NCBI RefSeq assembly: GCF_040954835.1
Contig: NC_090706.1
Span: 38,945,148 to 39,009,147, forward strand
Length of the DNA stretch: 64,000 nucleotides
Direction of reading: 5' to 3'
Origin: Lepisosteus oculatus
Taxonomy: Eukaryota; Chordata; Actinopteri; Semionotiformes; Lepisosteidae
Shown here: piece after piece, positions 2,300 to 59,315 of the stretch
Numbering within the stretch: the first letter of the stretch is position 1
Layout of the letters: every line of letters begins with the position of its first letter
Translations under genes and position numbers: made by a program
Notes under the pieces: model-generated
What the model was told of the DNA's origin: nothing
The model's database searches: none
What the model saw: the letters and a program-made list of their open reading frames with translations, nothing else

Positions 2300-5200
2300 C
2301 TGGTGGGAGGTGGAGAGAGCGAGAGAGAAAGGAAGGGGGTGATTATACAAGACAGACAAGGAGTGAAGCAAGCTCCTGCCTCACAGGTACCGGAGCCGGG
2401 GAGGGAGAGGGCGGCATGTACTGTAGCTGGAAGCTGGAAAAATCCCACGTTTGCTGTGGTAAGCAGGGAAGAACCTTGGTTGTCACTTCAGACAAAAGCT
2501 GTAAAACTCCCTTCGGTTGAACAAACGAAAGAGCAGCTGTCATCTAGACACGGGGGAATTTCGTTTGAAGGGCCCAGGAGTCTTCCTTTCACTGCCGGGT
2601 AGTTACGGCGCGGTTGTTTTCCTGCTAACATTGCGCCCCAGTCCGGGGTCACTCCTGCTAACACTAGCCCTGACGCGGGGTTCCCTCCCACGTCTTTTGG
2701 TCCCTCCGTGGCACACTCGCCAGCCCACAGCCTGCTCCCCTTTGTCGTGGGCTTGTTTCTCTAGTAAAAGGATTCGGTCAAGAAAAAAGAACAACAACAA
2801 CAAAAAAAAGAAACTGCTTACTCTTTGTAACCACCCCCCCAAAAAAAAACAAAACAAAAAAAAAACAGATAATGGATTTGAAAATAAACACCTTCGTCGC
2901 TAAGAAGAGATGATATGTGCAATTAAAGGTGACAAGACATCCTACCCAAACAGTGATTATTACCAAGTAACATCCCTAAAGATGACTGTAGTATTGTGCA
3001 AAGTGTACAGTACAGTACTTGAGTACGTTATTTACAAACGTATGATTAGATTAGGGTTTGGATCGCGGTTGGTATTAAGAATGGCATGCTGCAATGTAGT
3101 CAGATGTACTTGAGGACATAATTGTACAGTATATAATACAGAATCTCACAAACCAACATTTCAAAAGACATTATAGAAAATTACACGTGTAGTCTCTCTA
3201 ACCCAGCGATTTTGGGATTTTGTTCCAAAGTTTTTTCTCAGTGCGACTGCAGCATGTTGAAAGAGAAGCAGTTCCAACATAAGGCCATGACATGAATTTG
3301 TTTTTTCTCAGAAGAAGAGATGGATCCTGGCAGAAGGCTGATGGTGGGACCCAGTTTTTTACCAACCTGCCGTAAAACTGCCAGCCCCCTTTCGCAGCCA
3401 CTCTGAGTTTCAGATCCAGCCCATTACCCAGTCGGAGATTTGAAAGAGTATTTAAACTCTTAGAATACAAAAAGTGCACTTGATTTAAATGGAATTCGAT
3501 TTTTGTAGATGTAGATTTTTCAAATGAATGATGTGCAGCTGGTTGGTGTGATGGCTTTTGGTCTGTATATATAATGGAAATAGAGGATTTTTGTTTTGCC
3601 ATTTCTACATGTACATTAAGATTCTTATTGATGCCCTATATAATATAATTCAAAGTGGAACTGGATGTGAAAGATCGGGGGGTGAAGGCACCCTACTGTT
3701 GACCTTTGAACCCTAAGACACAGTGACAAACGATGCTCCAATGTGCTGATCACTGTTAGGTTAAAAATGGGGTGCCACATTTAAAAAAATAATTTGGCTT
3801 TTGACTTGGATCAGTCCTGATAAATCTTTACCACTCTACATCCATCATGCATCAAGCCTGGGAAATCTCAGAGCTGCTTTTTAGGACTTCTGTGAAACAA
3901 AGAGTCAATAAGATGAAATATTCAGCACTGGCTCCTGGCAGACAGCATCGTTTATACATCTCCAGTGGCACGAACGGAAACGATTTGGCCTGATCTTCAT
4001 CAGCGGGCACATGTCCTTTTCTTTTCTGTATAACGTATTTATTCTTTAAAATACTGTATCGCTTTTATTATAATGTCTTTTACTACAGGTGAGATTACAG
4101 CAACTCACCCTTGAAAGGACTGATAAACAGAGCCCTCCTGAAATAAAATGAGCAGTCTCGGGGATTACATGTTACAATACAAAAAGTGGAGCTGAATCAC
4201 AAAGTGAGGTCTTGGGTATAACGCAGAGATCACATCGAGGGCCGATTTTTGGTTTCAATCACGGGAAGGGACGTGTTGTGGGAAACTCTTAACGATTGTT
4301 TGAAAGTGCTCACTGCAGGTGGACAGCACGTTGTATCAGCTCCGTAATATAGCCCATAACTGATGGCGATTGCCGGCGGTGTGTATGGGTGCCACCTAAT
4401 CGCATCCACACACTCGGGACAAAGGCAGACCAGCTGCCAGGATCCACAGGTGAAGCAGCAAGGAGTAAGTGGAAGGGTGAGGGCAGACATGTTGAGTATT
4501 GCAAGAGGGGAGTCCAACCCTCATTACTGGAAAGAAAACATGCCTTGCTTGTCTCGGTTCATCTCTGTACTAACTTGCTCCTACAGCATTTACTAATTGT
4601 AAAGCACTTTTTCTTACAGGAAACATCTCCGGATGATTTACGTGGCTTCACCGATAAATATAATTTAGTACTGTCATGCGAAGTGATTCTGAGTTGCTGC
4701 CAAGAAAAAGGATTTTTTTCTTCATCAGGATAAATCTCCATCAGCGATAATTATTTTAAAAAATGATTAAATAATTAATAATGAAAACCCTTTTCTTCGT
4801 TTTACTTTAAGATTCCCAACTTTCAATTTCTTGCAAGGATTTACCAAAAAAAAGTCTTTTAAGTCATTATTACCAATGCTGTATTAAACTGCGGGAAATA
4901 AGTTTACAACACAGAACCTGTACAGTAAGGAATGTCCACGAGATATACTCATTCAAAATAAATTGTTAAAATTACAGCTGGATGGTGAAGAATATTATAT
5001 TTACAAGATATCTGGCACAATACAAAAAAACTGTAGAAATAATCAACGAACTTCGTGCAGATATCATAAAAAAATTTCCCAACCACTTTTCCCCTGCTGC
5101 TTTTACTACCCCTTCGTTTCTCTGAGGGCTTCTCTAGCTTGAGAAAACGTTCTTGAATTCACATCAGAGCTCTTACAGTCAAATGTTAAAAGAAATAAGG

Positions 5201-32901: not shown

Positions 32902-35900
32902 TTAGCTGAGCAGGCACCAGGGCGTCTCGGTCTGGTCACACTCCAGGTGGATGTTGACCACGGTGCAGGGCGCCCCGCTGATCGTCAGCTCCTTCCGGGC
33001 GTCCACTCTGTAGCGCAGGCTCGTCAGCCCACCTTCTTTGTCCACCTTGAACTGCTCCTGGGCGGGAAAGACGTGCGCTTGGAATCACATGTTCAGCCCC
33101 ATACTGTACATCCACTGATTGTTCACACAGAAATTGTTGGAGCACACAGATCGTTGCAGACTTTCTTCTTACTAAAGAGGGGGAGGATATTGCTCCCACC
33201 ACTATACTGGGGCATTAGGACCCACACAGACTGCAGAACTAGAGCGCCCCCTACTGGCCCCTCTAACACCTCTTGCCAGCAGCAGCCTTGGCTTTCCCAG
33301 GAGTCTCCCCTCCAGTCAAAGGTTTCGGTACAGTAAGTTAAGTAGCTGGCCTTTGCAAAAATTTCTTTCCTGATATTTACAAAAAATTAGCAAAAAATGC
33401 AATATCTGTTTGATCATTTCCAAGTTGCTTGAGCGGCTTTGCTGAAGGCACCACTATCTAGCGTACGATCATCCAAAATGTTTTTCAGTCTGAGTGGAGC
33501 GTTGCTTATCTGATTATAAGAAGTACAGACGTGTTTTAAACACAGATTGCCTCCCTTGTGTTTTTATTTCATTATAAGATTTTTCCTTACGGTAGGTTAC
33601 GCTTACCATATAAATTTGAATATTTTGTCTGTAACCCTCTTTTGAAAGAGCACAATTGGAGATTGTCACACCAAATTAACGAGCAATTCTATGTTTTAGT
33701 CCCGAATGTACTACAATATTTATTTCAATGGTGATGAATAAAGTTAGGTGCTCAAACTGATGATTAATTTTGAAACTAGACAAAGTGGCATTGTAGTAAG
33801 AAAGAGAAGCAGCAGCAAAGTTAGATCCAGGAGCCGCCTGACAATGACAACGACCATGTAAAACTGTATTCGTCTTCAAGTAAACTGTACCTGGAGGAAA
33901 TACTGGGGAGACACAGACTGTTATCGTAAGGGGCACCTGAAGGTGTCTTGCAAGGTATCTAGGTATTTGCTTACTGGCAATGAAACATTTTCCTCTGAAA
34001 GCTTTATAAAATTAGACTTTGTTGTGATGCTGCTTGATATTGGTGGACTAAAAACAGGAGTGCGTGGGTTTCTTTCACCTTTTAATTTAATCCCTCTCTG
34101 AACTGATGCATGCCTTCCAAGTTTTCCCTGTGACTCCCTGTCTGGACAGATAACGTTCCCCTCGCTCAGTGTGCTGCGCCTCTCGCCCTGTTCAATTCAC
34201 CTCAAGCGCAGCTCGCAGGCTGCTCTTGCGCCTGCCCGACACCTAGTGGCCGCTCGGGGCGCTGCACCGCACGGCACGGCCGCGCCTACCTGCTTCTGCG
34301 CCGCCACTCTCTTCTGGTCCCGCTTCCTCCAGGCGGGGTCGTGGATGTGCCGGAATGTCTCGTACCCCGTGGTTATTCCGCTCGGGCGGAAAAGCTGGAT
34401 TTGGACAAGAACGCGAGTGAAAAGGGGGCGATGAAACTACGGCAATGAAACTGGTACGTCAGGAAAGATCAGCATCAAGGCATAAGAGTCAGAAGAGGAA
34501 AGTGTTGCTTGAGGGATTTTCTGCTTTCTATGAACTAAAAGCTGACAGAAGAAAAAAAGCATGGGTGATGGAAAAAATTATACATATTTTGCTCTTTTAC
34601 ATCTTAAGTACCTTAGCTGATATGTCTAAAGGTCTCTGAACCATGCACCCATCCAACTGCTATAGAATTAGTCTTCTTTTTCTTGCTAATGGAGTAAGTT
34701 GTCAAAGAATCTGTACAAATTTCAAGGCGCGCAGCTAGCGAGACAGAATAGATGAACGGGTAATCGTCCTCTTTCACACTCCAGGAGTCTGGCCTTGGAA
34801 AAGCATGGCGAGAAGCAGAACATTTGGGTGTCATTCCGTGTGTTTTCACAGATCCCTGAAGACATCTACAGCATATTACATGCTGCAAATAACCGACGTT
34901 TTCAAAGGAAGCCATTAAAAGTAGCATTTGAAAAAAAACACGAGGTGTGAAGACTTGTAAACATTTCAGAGGTGTGGAATACTGTATTTGACCTTGAGGA
35001 ATCCATCATTATTCCAAATCTGTCCGATACTGTGGTTTATCAGACGATGTTCACAAGGCAGGCTGCACAACCGAACAGATGGAAGTTAGACAGGTTACCT
35101 GTAGCCCTGCCATTTTCAGACGTCTGTAGAACTCGTCATCCTCCCTGCCCCATCCCCAGAACCTGTTCGACATCCCGTTGCACTGAAAGGGAAAAACCAG
35201 GAGGGGTAAAAGCCAGCGCTCGAACCCGCCGCTCGTCGGGCGAGATCGGGCCGTGACTGCACCAGCCGGACCGGGACCCCAGCCCACCGCGGGGGATGGC
35301 GGTCCGAGCGGGGCCGTCTCCCCGAGGCTCCGAGCCGGAGCTCCTCCGGGATCCACCCCACACACTTCCTGCTCCGCGCGGCCCCGCGGTACAGAGGCGA
35401 AACCCTCGGACACGAGTTCAGGCCCGGTGCCCGCCGCAATCCTGACGGGCCCCGGCCCCGGACCAGTGCCCAGAACGATTCACTGGGCCTCAACAGGTAC
35501 AGATGGTTTTGGTTTCGGGAACGTTCGTAGGCTCATAGCATTCAATCCCGGACGTCATGCACTTACAAACGTTCCCAAACCAAAACGTTTTTTCTCTTTA
35601 ACCTCTCCCTCATACAGATAAAAGGAAACACACAAACGCCCACAACGATTTTCTATTTTTTTTTTGGGGGGGGCGAACCAAACAGTTCTATTCACGTATA
35701 ATAGCGGTGTGGCTCCATTCCTGATCTTTCCATTTACTTTCAGGTTTCGAATTAAAAGAGGTTCCCTGTCTGGGAGGGGGGGGGGGGTCTCACCATCTGG
35801 TAGTGCTGCTTGGTGAGGAGCAGGATCCCTCCCACGTAGGTCTTGTAGTGGTAGAGGGGGTGCAGCTCGGGCGAGGCCACGTGGAAGGGGCCGCGGTCGG

Positions 35901-38900
35901 GGAAGCCGTAGTCCAGGGCCTCGTTCTGGGGCAGCAGGTCCACGTCGTGCATGGCGACGTAGTCGGTGTCGTTCCCACTCTCCGCGAAGCCCACGTTGAT
36001 CAGGGACGCCCTGTTGAACCTGTCGGCAGAGGGGGCGGGGCCCCGGGTGAGCCGGCCTGCCGGACGAAGCCGGGCCGCGCCCACGCCCGTGGGGGAAAAG
36101 CCTTTTGGAAGAAGACATCCACGCGGGAACGTGATCCGCGAACGACTTCATCGGGAGGGGGGCCGCACCACCTGCGGTGTCCACCAGGGGGCGCAAGCCC
36201 CCCACGGGCACGCGTGGAGAGCCCCTCCCCTCGCACATGCGGGGCGACAGGAGAGACTTTACAATGGCTTACAAAGTCCTTCATCACCTCAGGCCCTTTT
36301 ATCCGCAGGAGTTAAGCAGGAGCATTTCATCTGTTGCCAAACATTCTGCAAGACCACAAAATACAGAAATCTAATTCTCCACAGAAGTTCAAGTAGGTAC
36401 CTACAAAGCAACAAGTTAAGGTTGATTCCATGCTGAAAAGAGAAGAGACAAGTGTGACAACTGAAGAAGGCTCTACAGCCGAAACACTGTGTCTGTTTTC
36501 TTTCCTTTTCAGCATGGAATCAACCTTTACTTGTTCGGTTATTCTCCATGCTTCAGCATCTCTGTCCAAGTTGAAACAGGAATGCAGACACTGTAGGCTC
36601 TTAAGTCTTACTTGAAAAGAGTTTTCAAGGTGCTTTTGTGTAACTTACTGCTACGGGATCGGACTTTCGTCACGACCTCTGTAGCATTTTCAAGAGCAGT
36701 GGCGTGGCTCAGGAGGGGTGCAGTACATTGCAAAATTCTTGCAATAATTTTGCAATGTGCAGCTTAGAAGAATGCAGCTATTTCCTGAAAAAGCATTAAG
36801 CGCAGATAACAGATAACACATAATACTGACACTGACACGACAGCCTTGCCATTTTAAAAAAGGCACTCCCAAAATGAATGCAATTTTTCCACAACACTAT
36901 TAAATCAGTCAAACATGCAACACACTTCCACATGACCGTACACATCAGGCCCTGCGTGACGCACACAGCCAGACTCCCTGAGCTGGATGCGTTTATATGG
37001 GCTCCATTATGGATTGTCTGCAGCTTATCGCTGTTTCCTTATCGACAGACAACAAGGCAGAGCTGTGCAGCTCAGCCACGACAACCTGAACCAAACCCTC
37101 TGCCCCACCGGTACTACCGGTCTTACCGGTAGTGGTCCACCTGGTTGATGACCAGGATCTTGTGGCGGATCCTCTTCTTGTTGAGGAAGGCGTGCATGTA
37201 GGGCACGAAGACCAGCAGCTCCTCGAAGCGCTCCCTGAACGGGACGAGGACGGCCAGCTTGTGCGGACCCCAGGAGGGGTCGTCGGCGGGGGGCGCCGGC
37301 CGGTCCGGCGGGCAGGGCTGGCGGGGCAGGGCGCCCTCCTCCAGCCCCGGCCTGCCCATGTCTCCGGAGCAGCTGAGCTGCAGCCACAGCAGCGAGCCCA
37401 GGACCACCACCAGACACAGGCAGAACAGCTTGAAGACGTTGCACTTCCTGGCCAGGAACCTGCACCAGACACACAGAGCGCTGCAGCATTCACCTCTGTC
37501 CGACAGCCCAGGCCTGCCACTTCTTTCTTCCTCTCAGCAGCACACACACACCACACCACGTTTAGAACAACCAAGCCCATGCAAAAAGGTGTGCCCACAG
37601 CTGGGCACACTGGAGGTCATTTCATTGCTTAAAAAGAAAAACTAGCCAGGTACAGTATTTTTGTTTTTTGCATTGCATGCACAATACTCTTCACATTTTT
37701 GTGCCCAGCTAATGAATCGAATTAATGAATGAATCCCTCAAGATCATTTCAAATCCGACGTGCAATCACTGGATTCAGCACCATCAACGTTTTCTCTTTC
37801 TAGGGCAGGGGCAGGCACAGGCACAGGCACCCCGGGGTCCTTGAGAGCTGCCTTTGCGTCTGGTTTTCAGGCCATCTCACACCGTGATGACGTCCCTGCA
37901 CCGCTCAGCTGTGTTTTCCAGGGCTTAATCAGGCGTAACTTGAAAGACGCCTCTGGAGCAGGGGTGTCAAACACAGCTCTCGGAGCGCAAGGTGTGTCCT
38001 GGTTTCCATTCCAGGCAGAGCTCCCAGATGCACGGCAAATCCGATTATTTTACCTACTGCCTGAGGGTCGGATTTCTGACCTGGCCCCACGGTGCTTTAT
38101 GGTTGGGTGTACTTCTGAAGACGTGAATGTGATGAAGTGACTGTTTTCGGTTAGACATTGTAAAAGACCTTAAGAAACAACCCTACAGGTGTCAAAGTAA
38201 AATAACCAGGCTCATATTTAATTGATAAATGGGGTTGGATGAAAATGGGGAAGACAATATTCCCTCCAGGAGCTGAGTTTGAGACCCCTGCACCCACCCC
38301 TGACACAGAGCTGGTCTGGCCATAAAACACGTCGTTCAGACGTCTTGAATGGCGCCACTGTGCAATTTAACAGCCATAGGCTACATTCAGCACGCTGTCA
38401 CCAACTCCGATTGAGGAGAAAACCAACAACAGTTCATGCCGAAGTGCTCAAGCGCTGTCTCCAGGAAAAAGCTTAGAGTGGGAATACCGCAGAAGCAGAT
38501 AAATTCAATATAACTTTCCGCGTTAATGGCAAAACGTATACTGTTATCGCCTGTTCCTTTGACAAAAGGTGTGGGTACTTTCCGAATACGTGCGGTTTTC
38601 AGCTTTGGACCAGAACGGGTCACAACTTGTTTGACTCGTTTCACTTTCTTAAAGATTTTTTTTTTCAGTGCGCCCAAACAGCAGAGCTTGTTCAATATTC
38701 ATGAGACACAGATTCAGAAAGTTCATTTTCCAGTGCTATCACCACCCACTCCGCTAACTTCGGGTTTTATGAAATTGCGTGGTAAGAACATAAAACGATT
38801 TGCATGAATGTGGAGTCGACACAAAAAAAGTGATATAAATAACTTCGCACGCCTCTGCGGAATTCCGAATTTAAGAACAGATCACGAAACTAAAAGTGTA

Positions 38901-50122: not shown

Positions 50123-53100
50123 TCAGTAGAAGCGCTTGTTCCTCTCCTGGCGTTTCTGGAAGACGACCGCCCCCACGACGGCGCAGACCACGATCCCGAG
50201 CAGGGCGCAGAGCAGCAGCAGGAAGACCTTCCAGCCGGTCAGCGGGGTGCTCCGGAAATTGCCCGTGGGGTCATCAATGTTGTCTGCGGCCGGAGAAACA
50301 GATCAGATACTTCTCCTTCTCTAACGACATCGAGGAAAGCATGGTGTAGGGAAACTACATTTTCAACACACTGGAAAATACTAAGTTCTTATTTTGCATT
50401 TGTTTTTTTTAACAACGCAAGATCAGCTAAAGAGCTGCATAAATAAACAATATTTAGCTATATAAGTGACCCCGTGCTAAGCCAGCCGGTTAATGGCTTC
50501 ACTGCGATCTCACAATGCCCCTAATGCAATGATACAGTAGACAAAAATAAATTCAAACATGTAGGAAAACAAAAAAAGCCCACTGGCAGTTCACAGATTC
50601 AAAGAATAATGCATCCATTTATCTCTTATTTTGGTTGAAAGGCAAAAAGAAAACTGCCACAAAAGCAGCGCTTGGCATCAAAATGGAACCCTGTTATCAG
50701 AATGTCCAAGTTTAAACTAGGCTGAGAAAATGCCTTATTGGCTAAAACAAATTAAACACTCTAAAAACTACAGAAACAACATCCAACCTGCAGTGCAGGC
50801 TGTGCTGGCCTTTGCTGAACATTACCTTTAGGCGATTTGAGCAGGCTGACACTGGGCTCAATTTTGGTCCAGTCCAAACTGTCCTCCTCTGGAGTGTGCT
50901 CCACCATCAGCTGGTACAGCTTCATGGAGATGATGTCGTGGTTATCTAGGGAGCAAGAATGCCATTGAAGCGGTGTGCATGACTGCTCAGTTCAGTCCTT
51001 TATTAATTCGGCTGTTGGTTGCATAGTGCACACAAGTCACAGACAAACCCACCAGCAAGGTCGCCGGTAGCTGCTGAGGCCCCAAAGTAATAACCAATGG
51101 GCAGCCGGACTCCAGAAATATCGATGCACTCTTTCCATTCGTTCTTGTCCTCCACATCAATCATAACCTGTGCAAAAGGCAACATATGTGTTACTGATAC
51201 ACTCTGATCAGGCACTGCAAGCACCTCCTGAGACTCAGCTCAGCGCTGACGGGGTTCATTCGGAATACCTCAAATGCATTTGCAACGACTAAAAACAAAC
51301 CAGCGTTCAAACACAGGTCAAGACACAAGGTTATTTTAATGAACACCGACGAGAGGTTCAAGGCATGCAGTGAACTTTGTGGAAATGTAAATATTCCCCA
51401 TCTATTAAAAATGGTCTCGTTCCGGCAGGATGGCATTTTGATCTGATCTGATCTGGAGTGGGGACTCCAAGAAGTAATAAAGTCTCTAACTGCACGATCT
51501 CTCCACCACCTCTGCCCTGTAGCACAAACCTGGAATGTCTCCAGTTTTGGAAAACCTTGCTCCAAACCTGAGGTCCACACAAGATCATGGTAAACCCATT
51601 CTTTTACTTGCCTCCTAAAACAGAGCTGCCTTTTTTAGTTTTCTTTGACAATCTCTCCTCTCGGCTCACAGCTTGCTCCCCTTCGTTGGGAGGTACGTCA
51701 ACAGGGAAACACCCTATCCCATAGGTCGGAACAATACTTAAATGCACATGGAGACATGCAAACGCAGGAGTCTTCATGTGAAAGTCTCTATCGCCCTAGC
51801 ACCATAGTGCTGTGCCCTCACTGGAAACAAGAGGCTCATCTGTCACCCTTACTGTGAGTCTGCCTTTGGAGTAGCGAACGGCCAGGTAGGTGTCATGATC
51901 CCGGTTCCTGATCTCAGCGGAACATCCTCCCAGCTCAGACGAGCGCCCATCCTTCCCGTGGTCGTAGGCCAAAGATCCGTTGTTTACCATGGCGGAGATG
52001 TAGGGGAATGAGCGCTAAAGGCGACAGAACACCAACAACATCGATCCATTAATTAATCTGGATTCGGCGACACCCACACTCTCTGGAGGATCAGGACTGC
52101 CACTTCTCACTCCTGGCAGCCTGACTTTTAAGTCATTTTACACAGCACTTAAAAAATAAGCATCACCAAGAGAAACTTTCTTGTGCAGGACCTCTCTTTG
52201 CATTTCTCTTCTTCACCCCGATCCTGTGAAAAAGATCATCACCCTACTGTGTGTTTCTCCACAAATGTAGCTGCAAGATTTAAATTGTCTCCAAAACGAA
52301 GGTGTCATTAGAAAATTGCTCCGTCTGCATTTTGAAACACATTTAGAGAAAAGAAATAATTACAGTCCAGGCACATGTGTGAAATCGAGCAAACCAGCGC
52401 TTCACTGTCATTTGTTAGATCACACAGCAGCTGTAACAACTCCAAGTTGAGCCTCCTGAGCCTGGCAGCGCCCTCTGGCTTATTTCTTTACCAGAACAGA
52501 TAAAAATAAAAATATAACAGACCCGCTGGACTCATTGACTGCTTTGTACACTTTAATAAAAATAAGTCGCTCTTTTGGGAGAGGAAATCTACACACAGAG
52601 ATATAAAAAGCAAACAACATTCATCTTTCCAGAGTTACAGAAAACTCAAGCCGAGAAGCTGTCAAACAAAAGTTTGGGAAAGTAAAAGCAATTCTTCGGT
52701 CATCGGCGTTTCACCCAGCATTTATACTGGTTAGTTTAGAAGAGACAAAGCTTGGAAGAGACAGGCAGGCTGTTGCTGGCGTTATATAGGAAGGCAACAA
52801 GGAGAATGCTCAGATCTGACACAATGGATTCAGAAAAAAAAAACATTCCAGTCACCCCTGCATTTTCCCCAACAGTGACCAAGGAAGTTACATGGGGGAA
52901 CATCCAACAGCCTCAGGTATTTGAGAGATCAAACATCCAGATTTCTCATTTCTCCAAAGTATTCAAACCAAGCTTTTCATAAGGATTGGGAAGACACGAC
53001 AGAAGCATTTGATCCTTATTTCCTTTACCCAATGAGTTTAATGAGTTCAGGTCACTTCCTGCTTTTGCGTTTTCTGATTGTACTGCGGTACGTGAAATTC

Positions 53101-56100
53101 AGACCATTTCATTTCAGAAGCAAGGGGAAGTTATGGGATAAACTGTAAGCTGTCCCATCTAGCATACTTAGAGCAGGAGCTACTATAAGGCTGAACTACC
53201 AACCAGAATGCATGTTCTGAATCCATTGCTCTACAAATTTGTTATACAAACACCATCGTATCCCCTTTACGCAACAAACACGTCGCAAAGAAGAAAAGGC
53301 TGCCCATCACTCACGTCAGAAGCCTCATCGTTAGGGTACGTGTCTATAAAAATGGCCAACCCGTGGAAGTTATCTTTGCTTCCAAGCACAGGTCCTGCAG
53401 AGAGAAAACCGCATCCGTGAGTACAGGAACACGGGCACACTTACGTCCATGCCGTGCAAGTCGTTGCGGAAGGTGTCCACAAAAATGCCGAGGCCAACAA
53501 AATGGTCCTGGTTTCCGAAGACCGGCCCTGAGCGGAGGCAGGGACGGAGTGGCAGACACCGAAGATTAAAACCAGACAAAAAAAAAAATCAGAACAAGGG
53601 TTTCCAGCAGAAATAAAACAAAATCGAGCCGAGTGAAGAGGAAACCCTGAAGGCTGAAGTCAGGAGGGAGCAAACCACAAGGGGGAAACCCTTTCCACTC
53701 AGAGACGTTTGTGCAACAACAGTGATGCCCCGTAAAATAACATTTTCCAAACCGTACTGTTCTATTTGCTTAGCAATTTAAATCACAGATGAACCCATGC
53801 AAAATTAGCAATCTAATTCTCGTTTCGGTGCAGTAGACTCCTTCATTTTCATCTCCTACTAATTAAAAATTGTTCTCATCTGCCACGCAGTGCAGACCTG
53901 TAATTAGTCCCTTAGCAGAAGCTTCTGCACAAAGTGAGCTACAGACACAAGGGGGTGAATTAACACTGACAGTGGGCAGCTGCACATTCATTTATCTCGG
54001 CTCCACAGTGTCCCATCTGAAGGAAAGTGCACAGAGCCCAAGTGACTGGGATAACACCAGCTGAGTCGGCAGAGAGCCAACCATCCTGGCAAACAAGCCC
54101 CTTTCCTCAAGTTTTCTGAGATCTACCCAGGAATGCAGGAATGAAACTCTACAGGGTTTTTTTAAAAGGGGGATAGTTTAGACGTTAAGCCCTAAAAGGA
54201 GTTGTGACAAATTACCAGGCTGCAGTCTCTCTTTTGTGTACCAAATGGCAATGCCATCGCCATGCAGATTCTTCTTTCCAGATCCATGTACTTTGAACTG
54301 CACATGCATTTCCCAGTCCTTTAGGAAGCAAGGCTGCAAACAGAAAGAAGGACGCATCAAAAGCACTGACTGGATAAATACTGAATGCAAATGTGTTTTT
54401 GCGATTTAGGTGTAATCCAAATTTTAGAAACCATACACAACTATATTTGGATATTTTATACATATTATGCGATGTTACTATATTATAATATATTGTAAAG
54501 TGGGTGGCGGAGGTCGGCACTGTAATGCACGTAGAAAGAACTTTTTTAATGTATGGAAAAGGCTATTCCCAAACTGAGCTGGTAGCTCAAATATAAAAGG
54601 AAGGAGCGTAGGACAGTCTCTCCAGCTGTCCGCTCAGTTCTGGTGCGAATACACACACTTCACTGCCTTTCTTCAGTATCCCTTTGTTTCCTAGGCAACC
54701 ACACAGTCTCCCACGCCCCCCAGAAGACATACTAGCCCTAACCCCAGGGTGTCTCCCTGCCAACTTTCAGGCGGGGAAAGCGCAACCTCTACAACGCTGC
54801 AATACACATTATATACACTGTATTTTGTATTTCAATGGAGCTGGTGGACCAGTAGGGGGCACTCTTTCCTCTAGACCACAGTCTCCACACACTATTGCTC
54901 CAGCACCCTGAATGGAGAGACTGCTGTGGAAGGTGCCCCCCCTTGACAAGATGTTAACCTGACTACTGGGCTGTTAAAGATGCCATGGCTCTGCTCTGAC
55001 GAGCAGGGGGTGTTATCCCTGGCCTCCAGGCTAAATGCAAGTCTGGGCTTGCACGTTCTGGCCTCCCTGAATTCCTCCCTCCGCCAGCTGATCTGGTGCG
55101 GCGCAGAAAGACCCACAGTGAGCTGCACCGCGTCAGTGGCAGATGGAGTCGGTCTCTTTCTAAAATGTTAGGAGCTGTGGGATCCCAATGGGTTACAATA
55201 CAATTGTATTATTTTAGCTTGCGGATGTTTCAACTGCAGTGGCCTTTTTTATTAGTTCCGTTGTTCAAGCGGACACATGGGAAAACCCACATGGGAATCT
55301 GGTTTCTTTCTACCGAGTCCATTTACTCACCACCGTGTTCCAGATGGAGCCTTGTTTGCTACGTTCGTCTGGCGTCAGACGAACATACTGGCTGGTCACT
55401 AAAGTACTACCCCAGAAATCCCACTGCGCCGAAGAGCCTGTTCCCACTCCTGCAAGATCAATTTAAAACAAAAGGTTCTGAGCAAAGAAGGTCAAAATCC
55501 CATCTTCCTTGAGATGAACATACTGTAGGCCACTCAAACAGACTACTTAAGTCACAGTGAATTCAAAATACTGACATGCTGAAAATGCTTGAGGTATGTT
55601 TTACAAGACTACATTTAGGCCAGTTTACAGGGCAGGTTATTAAAATAGGTCTCTGGTACAAGGGGCTTTGCATACCAAATGGTGCAGGAGAACAAACAAA
55701 CTAAGTGTATAGTGAAGGAAAAAATAAGAATTATCTAAATAATATTTGATTATTTGTTCCTGTGACTCTCTCATTCCGTTTTGGTGAAGCTTTTCTGAGG
55801 TTGGGAATAAACACTGGCACCTCACAATCGCTCTGAAGAGAAGTTCAAAATATGCCAGAGTTTGCTAAGGACGGTCTCCGATGCAGGCAGCGTCAGTGTG
55901 CTGCGCGCTGTATACTGTATGTGACCTCTGAGCTCATCACTATTTCCAAACGGGGGGAGGGTGGCAAAATAATTGTGTTTACGTCTTCCTGGCCTTGCAA
56001 AACCGGCTTTCCCATCCCCATTACCTACTACATCTTGAGTCATTTTGGGAGATGGGTGTCGCCTGCTAGTAAAGAAAACTCAGGGCTGTGATTTTTAATG

Positions 56101-56811
56101 AACAAATTGTATTCCGGTTGGAATTTGAACGAAATCCGTTCTTCCTACATCTTCCTTGAGCTACTGAGCAAATGCGACTTACAGCAGAACTCGGTTACAA
56201 GGCAGGATAAACCTTGATCTGATAAAACGAGAAACAAAAACAACGCACGCCAAGAATGGTTTTTCGTGTTTCTTGGTAAAGCTTTTCAAATAGGAACCGG
56301 GGGCGTGAGAGGCTTGCACAGGTGGGCTCCGGAAAGAAAGGCAAACGTACCATCTTGCCCAGTCAACGTGCGAAATGAAGCTTCTCGCTGGGGAACTGCA
56401 AAAAAGAATTTACTACGGACAGCACTTACAACAGCGGGTTTCATCAACTTGCAGTCGCGCTGCCTGCAGCTTGTAATCACCGGAAGCGTCATTTTCTGCT
56501 GCGTGCAGATCTGAATTTGACTTTATGCTTGGGGTGCCCTGGAAAGGCGGGTGATACGCGAGTCCTGCGCGGTACACACCACTTGGCAACATCCGACTGA
56601 AAAGTTACTCACCTTGGTACGGCTTCATAAGTGAGTGCTCCCGCTTCAAGTGCTCGCTGTTACCGTCTGTGATATCGGCATGGACCACGGCCACCGGGCA
56701 CAGCCCCACCAGCAGGAAGACGCTGAAAAAACCCGCCAGAGTCACGATCTTTCCAGCCAAAACGGACCGAAACCACCGAGAAGCAACTCTCTCGCTCCCT
56801 CCCGTCGCCAT
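50123..56811 (-). CDS. lman2: Lectin, mannose-binding 2 (VIP36)
   Basis: Type I membrane L-type lectin that binds high-mannose N-glycans on cargo between ER, ERGIC and Golgi. Eight coding positions: 56811-56613, 55449-55331, 54333-54216, then exon 4a (53527-53445) or 4b (53394-53315), 52014-51853, 51167-51053, 50945-50826 and 50283-50123. With 4b the product is 357 residues, with 4a 358 (human 356). Signal peptide to about A45 (VAVVHA|DITDGNSEHL), lectin domain about 50-275, membrane span about 324-346, tail QKRQERNKRFY. Sugar/calcium residues seen: D132 in HGDG, D163-T-Y165-P-N167 in exon 4b, H191 and D194, and G261-D262-L263. There is an N-glycosylation sequon at N184-G-S. The odd feature is the duplicated exon 4. 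Its neighbour 3 kb downstream on the same strand is tmed9. Confidence 0.97.
53315..53394 (-). CDS. lman2: lman2 alternative exon 4b (VIP36-like version)
   Basis: 80 bases between acceptor ctctgcag (AG at 53396-53395) and donor gtgagt. It starts in phase 1 and ends in phase 0, coding GPVLGSKDNFHGLAIFIDTY then PNDEASD. The Ca2+-site residues D, Y and N (DTYPN) are present. It closely resembles the equivalent human LMAN2 segment and has the same 27-residue length, so this is probably the constitutive or ancestral VIP36 form. Confidence 0.9.
53395..53444 (-). other. lman2: 50-nt spacer between exons 4a and 4b
   Basis: It begins with the exon 4a donor gtaagtgtg and ends with the exon 4b acceptor ttttctctctgcag. 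At 50 nt it is shorter than vertebrate introns normally spliced, because donor and branch point would be too close. The only branch-like word seen, tactcac, lies mid-spacer. It should therefore not be removed as an intron, which forces a choice between 4a and 4b. Confidence 0.8.
53445..53527 (-). CDS. lman2: lman2 alternative exon 4a (VIPL/LMAN2L-like version)
   Basis: 83 bases between acceptor cgctcag (AG at 53529-53528) and donor gtaagt. It has the same start and end phases as 4b and codes GPVFGNQDHFVGLGIFVDTF then RNDLHGMD (28 residues). The metal-site D and N are kept, tyrosine is replaced by phenylalanine as in ERGIC-53, and the proline after it is replaced by arginine. VFGNxDxFVGLGxFVDT is the pattern I remember from the paralogue LMAN2L. 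Both splice sites are strong and the frame is open, so this is a live exon, not a relic. Confidence 0.88.
54849..54862 (+). promoter_or_regulatory. CTCF-like motif, rightward
   Basis: The plus strand reads CCAGTAGGGGGCAC, 13 of 14 core positions. It lies in lman2 intron 2. Confidence 0.4.
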
Positions 56812-58317
56812 CTTTCTCCTCAGTATGAAGCTACTTCCTGTTGCGCTGAAACGACCAGAAACAAGCGGCTTTGTTTCGATACTTTCCCCCCAACGTGTTA
56901 GTATCTAGTTTAAAACTTCATCTGAAATTATACGGTCAAACTACTAAACCAACAGACACAACGAAAGTGGTCAATCGTTTAGACATCTCTATAATCCGCG
57001 TTTATTTGCACAACTCACAAAACGTTTCCTAGTTATACGAGCTTAACGCAAATATTTTTTTTCAAACAGGTTTTCTAAGAACGTATGTCATGACTGAGGT
57101 CTAGTATAATTATTTGTGATATATCTGAACAATAAACGATGGGTTTAACCGATAAATGTCATAATCAACTGTAAAGAAAACTTTGCAGATTGCTCGCAGG
57201 GAGTTTGTTGCAGTACGGAATAATTTGGCTGCCGGAAAGGGTTGCTGAAGCCAATTAGAAAAGAGCACATAAGTGCAAATATCAGTTTTCACAATCCAGG
57301 AGTTAAGAGTGCAGTTGAAAGCTTATAGCGGACGATAGCCAATAACTGAACGACACCTGGGAATTAACTCCCTGATCCTCCGGTGTAAATTGTTGGTCGT
57401 CCAGTCTTAATGTTTTATATGGTTTTATGTGTTTTGCTCATGGAGGGGGTGAATTACGAACTGTATTAATATTGTTGATGATGATGTTGAAGCACCGTTC
57501 ACGACACAAAACGCGAATTAATGCAAAAGAGACACGTCTACAAAACAAACTAAAAACAAAAAAAAAACAAAAAAGGTAAACAACTGTTATGATTCACTTT
57601 ATGAAGAATCGATGCAGTGACGAAGTACGACTAAGAGGGCACAGCCAGTTTTTCCATTTTAAAAATAATCTGACAGCAGGCTCGGTTGAAAAAAAAAACA
57701 GTTTCGGGTCAGTCTGATGTCATGCATTTTCTGAAGACGTGCAACGATTTCCCATTGCAGCGAGTCGACTGTTTAATGAAGTGAGGTGAAGATCCTTCAC
57801 ACGCAGAAACGAGCGATGTAATATATTGAATTATAAATTATTGATTAGTAACTCAAGCTGATGGATGGGAGACTTAGAAACCAGCTAGATCACGACTGTA
57901 TTCCGTAAACCCCTGCATCACTCTCTCTTTTCAAATCAGCCTGGCATTTTCCATCACGCAGAAATGTCACCACCTGTGATTTTTGCTCTGACACCATTTT
58001 TGGCAATTCTGTTGATCACAGAACATCACAAGCGCCGCGAAGAACGTCACGAGTGTAAAATACACAAATGTCACTTCAGAAGTGCAGTTTTAACGTTCTG
58101 TGGTCAAGCCAAACAAGGATTTCAGTGGGGATGGCTGACAGTAAGGGGGTAGCCGTGATCTCGGAATGCATCTGCAAACATGGAAAAGGAACCCAGAATA
58201 TCGTGTTTTAACGTGCCCACACATTAATGGTACTGTAACGCATACGGCCGACATTACAGGTTGTGACGTCACCGCCCTTCCCTGTGAATCGCAGGGACCT
58301 CAGCCGCCGGGCTGATG

Positions 58318-58390
58318 GGAGATCTCCCTTTAGCTCAACTGGCTGGGTCCCTGTTGAGTGACCCAGTTCGAGTCCCACCGGTGGGGGGCG
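58318..58390 (+). mobile_element. tRNA-derived SINE head or tRNA relic
   Basis: An A-box-like tagctcaactgg (58331-58342) and a B-box-like gttcgagtccc (58366-58376) have the correct order and spacing. Between them lies a perfect 7-bp stem, ctgggtc/gacccag (58343-58349 with 58360-58366). The acceptor ends do not pair into a proper cloverleaf, so a working tRNA gene is unlikely. Confidence 0.6.
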
Positions 58391-59315
58391 CATACCCACG
58401 TGAGCCTGAGATGACAGTACTGTAACCAATAAAGACAAACATGGGGCCCTGGATGGTTTTACATCATCACTTGCAGGTTCAGGAGGGGGAACTCCCCACA
58501 AGTGTTTCAGGAAATTTCAAGAACTGAACCCTGTCCATGATAGGGACAGGGGAAACCCCTTTCCTTTCAACCAAAATCCTCACTTTCTTAATTGGTCTAA
58601 TTACTTTTAATTAACATCTATAATCATTATATGGAAGCGTTTTAGAATTGGCTATCCAAGGTGGGTTTTATAGTTAATGCAACATGAATCAAAAGCTCCC
58701 TTTAAATGAACAACTTTGAAATTTTGAAATATTAGATGAAATATCTAAGGTATCTAACGCAACAAGGTAGACAAGAGTGTCTTTTAAAAGCTCCTATTAC
58801 GGACAATTTAATTAAGCAATGAAAACACGTTAAGCCGCGTATCACACAAGAACAGTTTGGCGCCCCTGGTGAAGAGTCATGCTGGAGGATTGATAAGATC
58901 TGTTCCACAAATATTCAGTAGATGGAGCTGCAGGTCTACAGTACTGCACTGGCTTCAGGCATTGTTTTCATATTTAATGACAGAAACAACCCCTTGACTG
59001 TTAAAATACAAACATGTCCATAAACAACACTTTATTTTATCGACAACAATTGAGAGGGTATTGTTTAAAGAGTCCAAACTACCACCACTGTAGAAAGACA
59101 CAGGTGTAGCTACATAAAGTCTATACACATTATCTAACACAGAAGTCCCATTTTTAGAATGATGGCACAATATTTCACAGCGTCAGATATAAAGAGCATA
59201 TTAGGCTCTTAGCTTAAATCCACATCTGATCAGTGTGTGAGCTTCAAAGTAACAAGTAGAGGCTATGTCCATACAGAAAAGTGGGAGAAAAACACATTTT
59301 GGCTGAGCTTACACC

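Follow-up and report, generated by a model that had tools for sequence, protein, structure and literature searches.

A probable mutually exclusive exon pair in the lectin domain of lman2 (VIP36) in Lepisosteus oculatus

VIP36, VIPL and ERGIC-53 are thought to split the sorting of N-glycoproteins among separate genes. According to the accessible text of the structural work on VIP36 and ERGIC-53, Tyr164 of VIP36 makes a hydrogen bond to Man(4) and favours one mode of binding, VIP36 owes its higher affinity to Tyr164 together with Asp261 (Phe154 and Gly252 in ERGIC-53), and the main specificity switch is Gly252/Asp261 (PMC3912170). The same text reports that loops 155-161 and 176-185 of ERGIC-53 are ordered only with Ca2+, which is linked to cargo release, and that Glu98 of VIP36 clashes with terminal glucose (PMC3912170).

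Tandem exons that steric exclusion makes mutually exclusive form a known class. In the accessible part of one report, a steric criterion of less than 50 nt holds for 57 (9%) of 629 human clusters (PMC5740500), and the accessible part of another describes human OGDH exons 4a and 4b, whose joint use is prevented by branch points that lie 25-41 nt from the upstream donor (PMC7969005). As in the lman2 gene described here, the OGDH exons form a tandem pair, one of which touches a Ca2+ site; OGDH is, however, an unrelated enzyme whose branch points were mapped experimentally and whose two isoforms are both known (PMC7969005), whereas the lman2 pair is known from sequence. No duplicated lman2 exon, and no such pair in an L-type lectin, was found among the literature matches listed, which covered titles and abstract openings, mostly non-subscription; genome annotation databases may list both isoforms.

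The window, that is, the whole 64,000-nt stretch of DNA that was analysed, carries on its minus strand an lman2 (VIP36) gene that is complete. The coding part runs from 56811 to 50123 in eight exons, and exon 4 is present in a second version as well. The parts of the gene are as follows.

56613..56811, minus strand: exon 1, coding part from the ATG, with the signal peptide and the start of the carbohydrate recognition domain (CRD) (tblastn)
55331..55449, minus strand: exon 2 (gene model, tblastn)
54216..54333, minus strand: exon 3, which holds Asp131 (VIP36 numbering)
53445..53527, minus strand: exon 4a, 83 nt, GPVFGNQDHFVGLGIFVDTFRNDLHGMD, with Phe at VIP36 position 164 and loop 1 longer by one residue (the exon by itself matches Pfam PF03388, E=1.4e-6)
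53395..53444, minus strand: spacer intron of 50 nt that separates 4a from 4b, with a sole yTnAy (CTCAC) whose A is base 27 of the intron and lies 24 nt upstream of exon 4b
53315..53394, minus strand: exon 4b, 80 nt, GPVLGSKDNFHGLAIFIDTYPNDEASD, with Tyr at position 164, of the dog VIP36 type
51853..52014, minus strand: exon 5 (His190, Asp193)
51053..51167, minus strand: exon 6 (Gly260-Asp261-Leu262)
50826..50945, minus strand: exon 7 (gene model, tblastn)
50123..50283, minus strand: exon 8, coding part, with the transmembrane segment, the KRFY tail and the stop

The products matched the PF03388 Lectin_leg-like domain with 305 bits (4a isoform) and 310 bits (4b isoform). Dog VIP36 was the best solved relative, at 469 bits for the 4a isoform and 494 bits for the 4b isoform, against about 153 bits for ERGIC-53 (153 for the 4a isoform), in a ranking among PDB L-type lectins whose matches included no VIPL structure. 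The C-terminus consists of a hydrophobic segment, judged by eye to be transmembrane, followed by KRFY (...KVFLLLLCALLGIVVCAVVGAVVFQKRQERNKRFY), an ending that we take to be a mark of the LMAN2/VIP36 family. The seven other introns measure 107 to 1300 nt, and in a tblastn search of the window with E up to 1, no lman2 exon except exon 4 (4a and 4b) had a further copy. On the same strand as lman2, at about 35-37.5 kb of the window (35054-37533), lie two open frames of b4galt7, both with beta-1,4-galactosyltransferase 7 as the best match (PDB 4IRP, E=2.8e-13 and 1.6e-22). A Pfam scan of 20 long open frames, out of 128 listed for the window, gave matches to galactosyltransferase families in two. 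Human LMAN2 and B4GALT7 both lie on 5q35. The window gave no matches in Rfam and tRNA scans, and stretches resembling tRNA-derived short repeats were seen by eye at about 58300-58420 of the window, where the tRNA scan was negative, and at about 5000-5140 of the lman2l locus introduced below.

The preliminary description of this DNA had proposed a tandem duplication of exon 4 in lman2, and its coordinates, gene identity and phases were borne out, with AG/GT borders and a PF03388 match. Each of the two exons is entered in phase 1 from exon 3 and left in phase 0 to exon 5. When exon 4a is used, the coding sequence is 1077 nt and encodes 358 residues; with exon 4b it is 1074 nt and encodes 357 residues, and both are open from ATG to stop, so that either exon links exon 3 to exon 5 in frame, as had been proposed. 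Also as predicted there, inclusion of both exons loses the frame: the resulting form of 1157 nt has a premature stop 429 nt before the last junction, and the form with neither exon (994 nt) likewise stops 320 nt before it. Both forms are expected to be subject to nonsense-mediated decay. The splice sites had been called good, and all four score above the 98th percentile: among 3977 GTs of the minus strand, the donor of 4a stands at the 98.4th percentile and that of 4b at the 98.7th; among 3998 AGs, the acceptor of 4a stands at the 99.3rd and that of 4b at the 99.5th. These scores come from approximate weight matrices of consensus frequencies and lie inside the range of the other lman2 exons. 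The exons are thus adjacent, similar in length (83 and 80 nt), equal in phase and identical at 15 of 27 residues, the features of a mutually exclusive pair.

These features suggest, with good confidence, that exons 4a and 4b are both used and mutually exclusive. The mechanism is likely to be physical exclusion, proposed because the sole yTnAy of the spacer stands at 27 nt from the donor of 4a, a distance below the steric limit of about 50 nt. The 4b branch point was assigned by motif only (yTnAy, CTCAC), and its position 24 nt upstream of exon 4b is suitable. With a spacer of 50 nt, the distance from the donor of 4a to this putative branch point would be about 27 nt, which would block the joining of 4a to 4b, so that the products would be limited to exon 3-4a-5 or exon 3-4b-5, while splicing failures that took both exons or neither would lose the frame and enter nonsense-mediated decay. 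The earlier claim that only one exon serves each productive transcript thus gains the frame, the spacer length and the branch motif on its side, and exclusive use itself is strongly suggested. The spacer has a computed fold of -12.0 kcal/mol, a value for the native sequence only, from which no conclusion is drawn here. Processed copies were considered as a stand-in for RNA across the genome (1.2 Gb, 813 contigs), and the sole one found ends before exon 4. It is a 136-nt intronless piece with exons 5 and 6 joined, 85% identical to lman2, and probably a processed pseudogene fragment.

L019:3392-3527 (G000:C2:35237391-35237526): processed lman2 piece, exons 5-6 only

Residues of the lectin site are numbered here as in the chain of 2DUO plus 48, anchored on Tyr164. 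The Ca2+ and sugar ligands of VIP36 we take to be Asp131, Asp162, Asn166, His190 and Asp193, together with Tyr164 and Asp261 from the structural work (PMC3912170). Placed on the exons, Asp131 falls in exon 3, Asp162, Tyr164 and Asn166 in exon 4, His190 and Asp193 in exon 5, and Gly260-Asp261-Leu262 in exon 6. The dog VIP36 CRD (PDB 2DUO and relatives), whose chain carries a 4b-type segment, is identical to the 4b isoform at 203 of 253 residues. Asp131, Asp162, Tyr164, Asn166, His190, Asp193 and Asp261 are all present in the 4b isoform, and 11 of 12 checked positions are the same as in the dog protein, the exception being Glu98, where the 4b isoform has Gln. Position 98 lies in exon 2 (window 55449-55331) and is Gln in both isoforms, as against Glu98 in dog VIP36. 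A 4a-type segment was absent from the 5 PDB sequences aligned, out of 9 matched.

In the 4a isoform Tyr164 is replaced by Phe and Pro165 by Arg, and loop 1 gains one residue (DTFRNDLHGMD in exon 4a, DTYPNDEASD in exon 4b); Asp131, Asp162, Asn166, His190, Asp193 and Asp261 are retained. Like exon 4a, ERGIC-53/LMAN1 has Phe in place of Tyr164 and Gly as residue 14 of the segment; unlike the 4a isoform, it has Gly252 where that isoform has Asp261. The Gly that would mark an ERGIC-53-like broad specificity is absent from this position, which is Asp in the constant exon 6, and for this reason the 4a isoform, despite its Phe, is not an ERGIC-53. Exon choice would swap part of the carbohydrate recognition domain, Ca2+ loop 1 included. 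The 4b form would be an ordinary VIP36 with Tyr164, and the 4a form would carry ERGIC-53's Phe on an otherwise VIP36 site with Asp261 retained. Weaker binding of high-mannose glycans at the Man(4) subsite would be predicted for the 4a form, possibly with a second binding mode of the ERGIC-53 type and with Ca2+ held differently.

That exon choice changes glycan binding we consider about an even bet from the residues concerned, and the change may be small, Asp261 being constant. The preliminary description had predicted two lectins of different specificity. The exchange of Tyr164 for Phe and the rebuilt loop 1 make a difference plausible, and because Asp261 is unchanged, a shift in affinity or in the mode of binding is more probable than a completely new ligand. 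Another reading opposes only this functional half and shares the splicing half: the pair would be used one at a time, and the swap would mainly tune the Ca2+- or pH-dependent release of cargo, or a contact of loop 1 with a protein, rather than glycan binding. In its favour, loop 1 is replaced and longer by one residue, the checked ligand residues except Tyr164 are unchanged, and the ERGIC-53 loops, in the accessible text, order only with Ca2+ and are tied to cargo release (PMC3912170). The one residue that does change is, however, Tyr164, given in that text as the Man(4) contact in VIP36 (PMC3912170), and we regard a role mainly in release or loop contacts as possible though rather doubtful.

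The two copies have diverged in a way that argues for long use of both. At the nucleotide level they are 59% identical (48/81), and their proteins share 15 of 27 residues, a count reached in 0 of 100,000 shuffles. Substitutions between them give pS of 0.92 and pN of 0.27, with synonymous sites near saturation. The protein identity together with these near-saturated sites indicates that both copies have long been kept as coding sequence. The divergence of 4a was then simulated at six divergences with 4000 runs each, and runs were counted in which the exon stayed open, kept at least 15 identical residues and had at most 10 identical third positions. Under neutrality the shortest divergence gave 6 runs out of 4000 in which all three held, and each of the other five gave none in 4000; under constraint (omega 0.1 or 0.2) they held in 13 to 1554 of 4000. 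With third positions ignored, 202 of 4000 neutral runs at the shortest divergence were open with at least 15 identical residues. It follows from the simulation outcome that 4a was kept as coding sequence over most of its history, and a dead, drifting copy is ruled out, save for one that died recently.

Such a recent death would escape the conservation test, which averages over history, and 4a could be the relic of a long-functional alternative that is now unspliced in this species. We think this improbable, since 4a has an open frame, a strong acceptor and a strong donor, and it preserves Asp162 and Asn166. It is more improbable still that 4a serves as a poison exon, joined to 4b in a frameshifted transcript that lowers lman2 output through nonsense-mediated decay. 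The early stop of the 4a+4b form would suit that role, but an intron of 50 nt whose branch motif sits at base 27 is not likely to be spliced out, a full protein results when 4a is used by itself, and purifying selection on 4a codons would be unneeded.

The two strands of the window together hold 1261 stretches of 70-95 nt that have AG/GT borders, the phases of 4a and 4b and an open frame, and borders with an open frame are by themselves weak evidence for that reason. In contrast, among 127,864 translated 23-residue windows scored for similarity to 4b, 4b itself scored 127, 4a 82 and the next 26, and the exons alone matched PF03388 with E=1.4e-6 (4a, 28 aa) and E=3.4e-8 (4b). The ranking (82, where the best chance stretch scores 26) and the Pfam match rule out a chance exon, in spite of the many open stretches of such size and phase, and the nucleotide identity is far too low for an assembly duplication, so that neither origin has more than a negligible probability.

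The used, mutually exclusive pair that we favour may be old. Over 24 aligned residues, 4b is identical to dog VIP36 at 22 and 4a at 15; against lman2l, 4a is identical at 16 and 4b at 15. The residue of 4b is that of dog, and differs from 4a, at 8 of these sites; 4a and 4b side against dog at 0 sites, and 4a and dog against 4b at 1. Since 4a is no further from the outgroups than 4b, fast evolution of 4a is a poor explanation of its distance. A clade of 4a and 4b was rejected by the AU test (p=0.048) and not by the SH (0.136) or KH (0.107) tests, and 4b grouped with dog VIP36 at a bootstrap of 65, all on 24 columns only, which gave 4a no firm place among lman2, lman2l and lman1. These comparisons are suggestive only, and give weak support to a duplication of exon 4 that predates the split of the Lepisosteus lineage and mammals.

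The other L-type lectin genes were examined for a similar pair. Most fish are described as having two lman2-like genes in the accessible part of a review (PMC3509574), and in the present genome one copy of lman2l was found.

L009 (G000:C2:69722800-69732700): lman2l, one copy found in the genome, single exon 4 found

In the VIPL/LMAN2L gene at this locus, exon 4 (GPVFGNMDRFTGLGVFVDTYPNEEKHQE) has Asn6, Gly14 and Val17 in common with 4a against 4b; unlike 4a, it has Tyr-Pro, as in 4b. The locus is named lman2l on sequence matches and partly on features typical of VIPL. Unlike lman2, it yielded only one exon 4 in 9.9 kb, and a search for the exon 4 pair in the two other L-type lectin genes gave one match each (E<1) in the 9.9 kb of lman2l and in 9.9 kb of lman1. 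A pattern search of viral and prokaryote collections returned 4 and 20 matches, with no relative among them.

A wider reading, which we put forward tentatively and rate somewhat below an even chance, is that the duplication occurred before the split from mammals, perhaps before that of LMAN2 and LMAN2L. The ancestral VIP36 gene would then have made both a tight cargo lectin with Tyr164 and an ERGIC-53-like one with Phe by steric exon choice, and the VIP36 studied in mammals would be one half of it. In the family as a whole, lman2 would supply through exon choice two binding sites from one gene. The residue swapped (Tyr164/Phe154) is one that structural work has invoked to explain the difference between VIP36 and ERGIC-53, and the two isoforms would provide a natural, testable pair of carbohydrate recognition domains distinguished by a single exon. 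Should 4a have the age to which the alignment points, half of what the ancestral gene did may escape studies of mammalian VIP36.
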